Origin: Betaproteobacteria bacterium HGW-Betaproteobacteria-12
GTDB lineage: Bacteria > Pseudomonadota > Gammaproteobacteria > Burkholderiales > Rhodocyclaceae
Reading direction: 5' to 3'
DNA: 64,000 nt
Assembly: GCA_002842345.1 (NCBI GenBank)
Contig: PHCU01000003.1
Span: 22,737-86,736, forward strand
A program made the position numbers and the translations under genes. The notes beneath the pieces were generated by a model that saw nothing but the letters and a program-made list of their open reading frames with translations, did not search any database and was not told where the DNA came from. Below, in pieces: positions 19,208-27,849 of the stretch (positions are counted from its first letter, which is position 1; each line of letters begins with the position of its first letter).

Positions 19208-19546
19208 ATGAGTCCTTCGTGGATCTTCGCGCTGTTGTTGCTCCTGCCGTCGCTTGTCGATGCGGCGGAGCCGCGCAGGAAAAGCGGCGAGCACGCCAGC
19301 CTGCCGCTGAACGGCCGCGAAGTCTATGTCCGTTCCTGCGCCATGTGTCACTCGACCGGCGCCGGCGGGGCGCCGCGTCTGGGCAGTGGCGAGGATTGGG
19401 CGGAACGGGCGAAGAAGGGTCCGGCGGAATTGATGGTATCGGTCTTGCGTGGCAAGGGCGGCATGCCGCCGAAGGGCGGCAATGCCTCCCTGACGCGGGT
19501 CGAAGCCTATCTGGCGCTTGACTACATGTTGAATGTCGAGAAATAG
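19208..19546 (+). CDS. monohaem cytochrome c5-like protein
   Basis: Signal peptide; CAMCHSTGAGGAPRLG; GGMPPKGG. Confidence 0.9.
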   Translation: MSPSWIFALLLLLPSLVDAAEPRRKSGEHASLPLNGREVYVRSCAMCHSTGAGGAPRLGSGEDWAERAKKGPAELMVSVLRGKGGMPPKGGNASLTRVEAYLALDYMLNVEK

Positions 19547-19556
19547 TTTCCAGACG

Positions 19557-19621
19557 GGCTGCCGGGCGAAAGTACATCGAAACGTACTTGGTCACCTCCC
19601 TGAACACTTGTTCCGGTAGCC
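19557..19621 (+). ncRNA. candidate structured leader RNA (multi-stem)
   Basis: Hand fold: GGCTGCCGG/CCGGTAGCC closing stem, AAGTAC/GTACTT hairpin, GAAC-ACTT-GTTC hairpin; precedes a terminator and RBS. Confidence 0.45.
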
Positions 19622-19627
19622 ATTTGC

Positions 19628-19661
19628 CCGCAACCCGAGCAATCGGGTTGCGGTTTTTTTT
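19628..19661 (+). terminator. intrinsic terminator immediately upstream of the tetrahaem gene RBS
   Basis: CCGCAACCCGA-gcaa-TCGGGTTGCGG followed by a T-tract, then ACTGGAGTTGGG and ATG at 19681. Confidence 0.85.
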
Positions 19662-19680
19662 ACTGGAGTTGGGATTGTCG

Positions 19681-20391
19681 ATGCGAATTGCCCTGGCGCT
19701 GCTGCTGCTCGTCCCCCTTGCCGGACATCTGCGCGCGGCTGACATTCGCGCCACGCCGCATAACCTGGCGCAGCAGGGGGCGGCGGTCGAGGCCGAGGAA
19801 GTCTGCGTCTTCTGCCACACGCCGCAAATATCGGCCGACCTGGCCGCCCGCAGTTCGGTCAGCCTGCAGCCGGCCTGGCAGCCCTCGTTGTCCACCAGTC
19901 ATTCCTTCGTGATGTTCGACGACATTGGCCGCCTGCAATTCGGCGACAAGCCGGCGGTCGGCTCGCAATCGATCGCCTGCCTGTCCTGCCACGATTCAAA
20001 CCAGGCGTTTTCGGTCCAGGCGGCGGAGTCCGATCACCCGTTCGGCATCCCCTATCGGGGCTATTCCCGCGGCCGGGAAAGAACGCCGGACGAGATTGCC
20101 GCCGCGCGCAGCATGCCGTCGCGGCAGGCCAAGGAGTTGAAGGGGCTCGACGACTTTCGCCAGCCGAGCCGCGGGGTCGTCGACAATCGCACCGTCTGGT
20201 GGGTGTCGGCTTCCGGCGTGACGCCGTTCCGCACGCGCGCCGACCTGCCGTTGTATGCCCGTCCCCAGGCGGCCGGCGAAGTGCCGTTCGTCGAATGCAG
20301 CAGCTGTCATGATCCGCATGCCAGTAGCGCGTTGTTCCTGCGTGTGGATAATGCGGGCAGCCGTTTGTGCCTGACCTGTCATGACAAGTAA
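19681..20391 (+). CDS. tetrahaem c-type cytochrome
   Basis: Signal peptide; CVFCH, CLSCH, CSSCH, CLTCH. Confidence 0.9.
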   Translation: MRIALALLLLVPLAGHLRAADIRATPHNLAQQGAAVEAEEVCVFCHTPQISADLAARSSVSLQPAWQPSLSTSHSFVMFDDIGRLQFGDKPAVGSQSIACLSCHDSNQAFSVQAAESDHPFGIPYRGYSRGRERTPDEIAAARSMPSRQAKELKGLDDFRQPSRGVVDNRTVWWVSASGVTPFRTRADLPLYARPQAAGEVPFVECSSCHDPHASSALFLRVDNAGSRLCLTCHDK

Positions 20392-22646: not shown

Positions 22647-22682
22647 GTAATAGTTGCGGGTAACCGCACTAGTTCTGGCAAT

Positions 22683-22718
22683 CGGGCCGGCCCGCAAGGT
22701 GTTCGGCCCGTTTTTTTT
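22683..22718 (+). terminator. intrinsic terminator immediately upstream of ppiC-like gene RBS
   Basis: CGGGCCG...CGGCCCG followed by TTTTTTTT, then CTGGAGGTAG and GTG at 22733. Confidence 0.8.
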
Positions 22719-22732
22719 CTGGAGGTAGTCAC

Positions 22733-26404: not shown

Positions 26405-26824
26405 ATGAAAATACTCTCGAAACTGAGGGCAAGCATTGCGGTCTCCGTCATCATGATTTTCTCGGCGGTGCTGTTCGTCGACATCAATGAAGCCCGGGCC
26501 GAATACGGGGATGTCGTCATCAACAATTACTCCGACGCTGCGGGCATGCGCCCGGTCGTCTTCCCGCACTGGTTCCACCGTATCCGCTTCCGCTGCAAGG
26601 TCTGTCACGCCGACCTCGGCTTCAAGTTCCAGGCCGGCGGCAACGAAATCAACATGGTCAAGATCATCGACGGCCAGTTCTGCGGCGCCTGCCACAACGG
26701 CGATATCGCCTGGTCGGTCGAAAACTGCAACCTCTGCCACTCGGCCAATCCGAAGACCCCGACGCAGGTGCATGAAAGCACCGTGCAGAAGCTGGTGCAG
26801 CCCACCGGCACTCCGAAGAAGTGA
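26405..26824 (+). CDS. trihaem c7-type cytochrome (type A)
   Basis: CKVCH, CGACH, CNLCH; PVVFPHWFHRIRFRCKVCH. Confidence 0.9.
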   Translation: MKILSKLRASIAVSVIMIFSAVLFVDINEARAEYGDVVINNYSDAAGMRPVVFPHWFHRIRFRCKVCHADLGFKFQAGGNEINMVKIIDGQFCGACHNGDIAWSVENCNLCHSANPKTPTQVHESTVQKLVQPTGTPKK

Positions 26825-26835
26825 GGGAGGCCGCC

Positions 26836-27849
26836 ATGAAAATATCCAACAAGTTCGTCGCCGCCACCGTCGCCCTGCTGCTCGCCGCGCCGGTTATCGC
26901 CCAGCAGTCGGGCAAGGATGTCTACACCAAGGTCTGCGCCACCTGCCACGCCACCGGCCTGGCCGGCGCGCCGCGCTACGGGAATGGCGCCGACTGGGCG
27001 CCGCGTGTCGCCACCGGCCTGCCGGCGCTCTACCAGAGCGCCCTGAAGGGCACGCCGAAGGGCATGCCGGCCAAGGGCGGCCATTTGACCCTGCCCGATG
27101 GCGAAGTGAAGGCGGCCGTCGATTACATGCTGGCCTCGGTCAAGGGGGCGGTGAAGGTCGCCGAGCCGAAGAAGGCCGAAGAAGCGAAGGAAGCGAAGGA
27201 AGTCAAGGAGCCGAAGAAAGCCGAGGCCAAGCCGGCCCCGGTTGCCGCCGCGCCGGCCCCGGCTGCTGCGCCGGCCCCGGTACGGGCCGCGTCGCCGGCT
27301 CCGGTCGCCCAGACGACGGCCAGCGGCGAAGACATCAACTCCTTCAACCGGCTGCTGAAGCCGGCCAGCAAGCGCAACCTGCCGCCGCCCGAGGATGGCA
27401 TCCACGATCCGGCCAACGACGGCACGCATGCCCTGCAGCCACCGCTCGCCGCCTTCGCCAGCTTGCCGAAGAGCATGTCCGGCAACCGCATCAACTGGGT
27501 CGAGGCGCTGGGCCAGAAGAAGATCAATCCGCGTTACGACCGGGTCGATCCCAAGGCTGAGCCGATCGTCATGGACCTCAACATCGTCCGCGAGGTGAAG
27601 GGCTCGATGCCGGACGTCGTCTATCCGCACAAGCAGCACACCGAGTGGCTGGACTGCTCCAACTGCCACCCGGCCATCTTCGTGCCGCAGAAGGGCGCCA
27701 ACCAGATCAGCATGGCCGCCATCCTGCTCGGCGAGAAATGCGGTGTCTGCCATGGCAAGGTGGCCTTCCCGGTATCCGAGTGCCGGAACTGCCACTCGAA
27801 GAAGAAGGAAATGGCGCGCAGCCCGGCGCCGGCCGCCGCCGCCAAGTGA
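26836..27849 (+). CDS. chimeric cytochrome: c5-like domain, Lys/Glu/Ala/Pro linker, trihaem c7-like domain (type B)
   Basis: CATCH then CSNCH, CGVCH, CRNCH; low-complexity linker. Confidence 0.88.
   Translation: MKISNKFVAATVALLLAAPVIAQQSGKDVYTKVCATCHATGLAGAPRYGNGADWAPRVATGLPALYQSALKGTPKGMPAKGGHLTLPDGEVKAAVDYMLASVKGAVKVAEPKKAEEAKEAKEVKEPKKAEAKPAPVAAAPAPAAAPAPVRAASPAPVAQTTASGEDINSFNRLLKPASKRNLPPPEDGIHDPANDGTHALQPPLAAFASLPKSMSGNRINWVEALGQKKINPRYDRVDPKAEPIVMDLNIVREVKGSMPDVVYPHKQHTEWLDCSNCHPAIFVPQKGANQISMAAILLGEKCGVCHGKVAFPVSECRNCHSKKKEMARSPAPAAAAK

Follow-up and report, generated by a model that had tools for sequence, protein, structure and literature searches.

The intergenic region between a monohaem cytochrome gene (c5) and a tetrahaem cytochrome gene, in the 64,000 nucleotides of DNA that were analysed as a whole (the window), holds a real structured RNA at 19557-19661 (Table 1), and this element is best read as the 3' untranslated region (UTR) of c5 and, at the same time, as the tetrahaem operon's intercistronic leader. 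We assign a probability of about 55% to the proposal that this 3' UTR ends in a leaky terminator and probably yields a CU-rich small RNA (sRNA) that would pair with Shine-Dalgarno (SD) sequences. The preliminary description of this DNA had drawn by hand a closing stem (P1), two inner hairpins and a terminator followed by the SD of the tetrahaem gene, and all of these are found at the positions it gave, while its suggestion of a riboswitch is unsupported, for the reasons given below.

Table 1. Features of the c5-tetrahaem intergenic region, its flanking genes and a candidate target (window coordinates)
Feature	Position	Strand	Remarks
c5 gene, monohaem cytochrome c (Pfam Cytochrome_CBB3)	19208..19546	+	stop TAG 19544-19546
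Closing stem P1, 5' arm GGCTGCCGG	19557-19565	+	covarying, 11 sequences
Hairpin AAGTAC (19570-19575) / GTACTT (19584-19589)	19570..19589	+	lineage-specific
Anti-SD seed ACCUCCC, P1 apical region	19594..19600	+	CUCCC 19596-19600 invariant, 11 sequences
Small hairpin GAAC-ACTT-GTTC	19602..19613	+	close relatives only
Closing stem P1, 3' arm CCGGTAGCC	19613-19621	+	covarying, 11 sequences
Linker ATTTGC, P1 to terminator, U-rich	19622..19627	+	conserved in alignment A2
Intrinsic terminator, arms CCGCAACCCGA (19628-19638) / TCGGGTTGCGG (19643-19653)	19628..19661	+	
SD GGAG of the tetrahaem gene	19665-19668	+	3 nt past the T-tract
Tetrahaem cytochrome gene	19675..20391	+	probable start TTG 19675
RBS region, c5-c7 fusion cytochrome gene in the same cluster (start 26836)	26815..26836	+	candidate target

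As to the structure itself, the leader (19552-19661) folds with -47.4 kcal/mol (z = -4.94), none of 200 shuffled sequences folding as well, and the z-scores of the six relatives that were folded are between -4.6 and -5.6 in five cases and -4.1 in the remaining one. Across 11 sequences, 7 of the 20 base pairs of P1 and the terminator show two-sided changes, compared to 2.2 in shuffled data, with 0 of 500 shuffles reaching 7. P1, a stem of 9 bp including one G:U that starts approximately 10 nt past the c5 stop, has four of its nine pairs changed on both sides in the same 11 sequences, with 99% of the cells paired, and the terminator alone contributes three such pairs, while sliding the partner by a single base reduces pairing from 94.5% to about 42%. 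Covariation in homologues, by which the preliminary description had proposed to judge the element, is thus present in P1 and the terminator, supporting its claim of a structured RNA with a strong intrinsic terminator 5' of the tetrahaem gene. The terminator combines the properties expected of the intrinsic type, a GC-rich hairpin (an 11-bp stem closed by a GCAA loop, -22.3 kcal/mol), a U-tract (T8, 19654-19661), conservation and compensatory pairs.

More than a terminator is conserved, as the identity to the window from the seed through the terminator, 93-97% in G408, G404, G452, and G431 and 87% in G429, is far above that of the fourfold-degenerate sites of the tetrahaem gene (38-55% identical in the closest relatives). 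Of the 48 alignment columns interior to P1, the only ones invariant in the 11 sequences are those of CUCCC and of a single UU (columns 98-99 in alignment A2), CUCCC being the sole unpaired run that is invariant in all of them. In terms of sequence, the features of a CU-rich anti-SD sRNA are in place: CUCCC is present in 11 of 11 sequences, its predicted probability of being unpaired is at least 0.73 in ten (0.73-1.0), and a T-tract is found in all. The exception is G429, with a less accessible seed in the predicted fold (0.28), and this counts against the sRNA reading. In G404, G408, and G431, the loop of the first hairpin (19570-19589) contains a second CTCCC, with TTCCC found there in G452 and neither motif in the window. 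The full seed of G408 and G452, GAUCACCUCC, reproduces the known 3' end of 16S rRNA. This signature of the seed, an SD complement resembling the 16S rRNA terminus, points to pairing with SD sequences.

Homologues were searched for with the tetrahaem protein first, and afterwards with R1, a covariance model built on the leader. Eleven distinct elements are now recognized, in the window, G404, G408, G429, G431, G452, G363, G430, and G436, along with the divergent L009 and G053, and wherever the flanks were read, a monohaem cytochrome gene precedes the element and the tetrahaem gene follows it. One of the carriers is Dechloromonas hankyongensis XY25 (L003, G404). Ten of 77 genomes of the genus encode the tetrahaem protein and nine of these ten possess the element, while the 67 genomes without the tetrahaem gene contain no credible copy of it (0/67), defining the element as locus-bound and narrow. 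G270, the tenth carrier of the tetrahaem gene, has a terminator at this locus, without the C-rich loop, and L008 likewise lacks the element. A search with the leader DNA in 399 genomes of the family returned only short chance matches, and an order-wide search with model R2 returned 21 weak matches (24-35 bits), rejected as further copies, being ordinary terminators or CU-rich sRNAs of the S17/RF02278-like and anti-hemB-like kinds. Ten S17/RF02278-like RNAs of the pattern UCUCCUCCA-C/U-CCUCC...UUUGGUG (L121, L122, L123, L126, L219, L226, L227, L228, L233, and L234), from other genomes of the family and the order, are weak matches to the leader models.

A structured leader with a terminator, tied to a single operon, is what would be expected of a new metabolite riboswitch (for c-di-GMP, haem, or metal) controlling the tetrahaem operon, as originally suggested. 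However, the Rfam scans agree with the preliminary description in recognizing no known class of riboswitch, c-di-GMP-I included: at gathering thresholds, only a tRNA reaches its score within the window, and at relaxed E-values no riboswitch class emerges from the window or the relatives. No conserved aptamer core is found, the apical region of P1 offering only the invariant CUCCC and UU, and the one conserved unpaired run is a complement of the SD. The architecture of the inner helices also shifts between clades. While members of the main clade have AAGTAC/GTACTT and GAAC/GTTC, G430 and G363 hold a different hairpin in the same space, AATTAAC/GTTAATT with ACCUCCC in its loop, and the inner helices of the two clades are non-homologous. 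The inner hairpins are therefore lineage-specific, and the three-way-junction-like domain described before is not a conserved feature. With no conserved antiterminator (a sequence further 5' that could pair with the terminator arm) in nine genomes, and with the element known from about 11 genomes only, the riboswitch reading is unsupported, and we consider it highly improbable.

Only 3 nt lie between the end of the T-tract and the tetrahaem SD, in agreement with the earlier remark that the two adjoin. A separate downstream promoter, which had been named as the competing possibility, would not fit into this space, and transcription of the tetrahaem operon must therefore proceed by read-through of the terminator. 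No conserved promoter of the element's own was found, and a sigma-70 promoter at 19518-19547 was rejected, as it overlaps the coding sequence and as two promoter-like sites in 8 kb compare to 1.7 expected. The tetrahaem gene itself, previously assigned the ATG at 19681 as its start, more likely starts with TTG at 19675, the aligned codon being TTG, CTG, or ATG in relatives, some of which lack an ATG at 19681. The codon is CTG in G404, G431, and G452, and, judging from these alignments, non-ATG starts seem to be usual for this gene.

Attenuation in a loose sense is plausible, and this much of the attenuator originally proposed can be retained, as read-through is needed. A cis-acting version that responds to something other than a small molecule, with read-through into the tetrahaem operon altered by a protein, by an sRNA, or by ribosomes as they terminate on c5, would agree with the terminator immediately preceding the SD, with the missing space for a promoter, with the restriction of the element to the tetrahaem operon, and with the precedent of UpsM, an sRNA-bearing leader able to control read-through (PMC8625941). 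This version appears unlikely, however, as no pairing that would compete with the terminator is conserved, and pairing between the 5' part of the element and the SD is within chance in eight of nine genomes: a helix, P0, formed by the post-stop UUUCCAGAC with the SD region was seen in single folds but was rejected (p = 0.10-0.60 in the eight genomes, 0.044 in the other). Somewhat less unlikely, though still a minority reading, is a plain terminator of c5, or a stabilizer of its mRNA, with partial read-through setting the stoichiometry of the cytochromes and with a C-rich loop that has no function in trans. The terminator between c5 and the tetrahaem gene is also present in G270, L009, and G053, and a hairpin with T8 preceding the SD of a PPIase gene makes intercistronic terminators a theme of this operon. 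What a plain terminator leaves unexplained is the near-invariant loop and linker, the covariation of P1 as a separate stem, and the invariant CUCCC.

The sRNA reading accommodates these features as follows. Transcription entering from upstream would mostly stop at the intrinsic terminator, and the terminated RNA would consist of P1, displaying the unpaired ACCUCCC, followed by the terminator and a U-tail. This RNA would most likely act as, or be processed to, a base-pairing sRNA of approximately 100 nt, occluding SD sequences on its target mRNAs as the betaproteobacterial CU-rich sRNAs do, while some of the polymerases would read through into the tetrahaem operon; with such partial read-through, the terminator would also determine the proportion between c5 and the remainder of the cluster. 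We infer from sequence the transcription of the element, its processing, its action in trans, the level of read-through, and Hfq binding, for which the linker is a possible contact. An sRNA acting in trans would not usually be tied so strictly to a single locus, and this counts against the sRNA reading. There are precedents for such an sRNA in S17 (PMC11722255) and ncS27 (PMC5688073), and for the layout of an sRNA combined with read-through in UpsM (PMC8625941).

Of the known families, the best match at relaxed Rfam thresholds is anti-hemB (RF02837), with 22.0 bits for the window and 19.4-21.6 bits for four relatives. Membership in this family is rejected, as the scores are under half of the gathering threshold of 49.5 bits, and so is membership in RF02278, the Betaproteobacteria toxic sRNA (13.3 bits versus 50). 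Bona fide members of both are encoded at other loci of the same genome (68.6 bits for anti-hemB and 64.4 bits for the RF02278 sRNA), and anti-hemB is present in 12 of the 12 genus members tested. The element belongs functionally with the CU-rich betaproteobacterial sRNAs, outside of both RF02837 and RF02278, the sub-threshold Rfam scores and the weak matches to CU-rich sRNAs indicating a functional grouping and not family membership. Like the element, anti-hemB (known as ncS04 in Burkholderia cenocepacia, PMC5688073) has CCUCCCUGA in a hairpin-loop region, a second element, and a terminator with a U-tail, but the leader seed resides inside a different long stem, in the c5-tetrahaem intergenic region. 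The S17/ncS27 'double-hairpin' or 'toxic' sRNAs (RF02278; PMC11722255, PMC5688073) share with it the CU-rich unpaired sites complementary to the RBS, the two hairpins, and the terminator, whereas the 5' UCUCCUCC... of the family copies is missing from the leader element. The short form of S17 arises through processing by RNase E (PMC11722255, PMC5688073).

Two further comparisons concern the layout. UpsM of Rhodobacter sphaeroides (PMC8625941) is similar in that partial termination right before an operon makes an sRNA while read-through expresses the operon. It differs in sequence and lineage, no StsR-like partner is known for the leader element, and what precedes the element in the transcript is, in our case, a coding gene. 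The CcsR1-4 RNAs have CU-rich loops. These sRNAs, of the 'cuckoo' family (PMC8625941, PMC10253847), likewise lie in a small gene's 3' UTR, share its transcript and are processed, but they are alphaproteobacterial, linked to DUF1127, and arranged as four tandem copies.

Other CU-rich hairpin-terminator elements are found in the same genome, at C181, C267, and C9. One of these (L117, G000:C181:20165-20233, minus strand) presents a long stem around CCUCUCUCCUCCCUG followed by a terminator, the same architecture as that of the leader element, and is located directly 3' of the stop of an ORF that reads as TctA-like. The other two (L114, G000:C267:3524-3586, and L112, G000:C9:5959-6015, both minus strand) are CU-rich double-hairpin RNAs with terminators ending in U8, below the thresholds of RF02278 and RF02837, and they apparently begin directly at an ORF stop codon (TGAACCCUCC... 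and TGAACCCCUCC..., respectively).

As to possible targets, the strongest predicted partner of the seed among the 480 ORF starts of the window is the RBS of the c5-c7 gene (-22.3 kcal/mol). The window and G431 give a strong predicted duplex, G404, G408, G452, and G429 a moderate one, and G363, G430, and G436 none, and no target conserved in all carriers emerged from the duplex scan. As SDs complement the seed by their nature, the c5-c7 RBS is to be regarded as a lead only. This RBS (26812-26836) extends into the 3' end of the gene before it; its SD is of a strong AGGGAG type in the main clade and AAGGTG in G363 and G430. Matches of the SD-complement type, AGGGAGGU...ATG, which in several carriers include a gene resembling malonate decarboxylase by its sequence, were rejected as targets, since any AG-rich SD would match.

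It would follow from a bolder version of the sRNA reading, which we regard as very doubtful, that an operon of extracellular-electron-transfer (EET) cytochromes encodes an anti-SD sRNA of its own, released by termination past the first gene, with the ACCUCCC seed pairing with the RBS of the last cytochrome gene (c5-c7, 26836) and of other mRNAs, and with read-through expressing the conduit. Were this true, how much of the conduit is made and what it consists of would both be adjusted by the balance of termination and read-through, in cis as well as in trans. In a narrow literature search, no account was found of porin-cytochrome conduit genes of Rhodocyclales being under riboregulation. An RNA that is bound to a single locus and conserved in its seed sits inside an operon of electron-export cytochromes, and would enlarge the growing set of betaproteobacterial CU-rich sRNAs with seeds resembling the 3' end of 16S rRNA. 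Further along the same operon, a second intercistronic hairpin with T8 (22681-22719) adjoins the SD (to 22724) of the PPIase gene (22733), and eight relatives conserve the T-run just 5' of this SD, suggesting that terminators segment the cytochrome operon.
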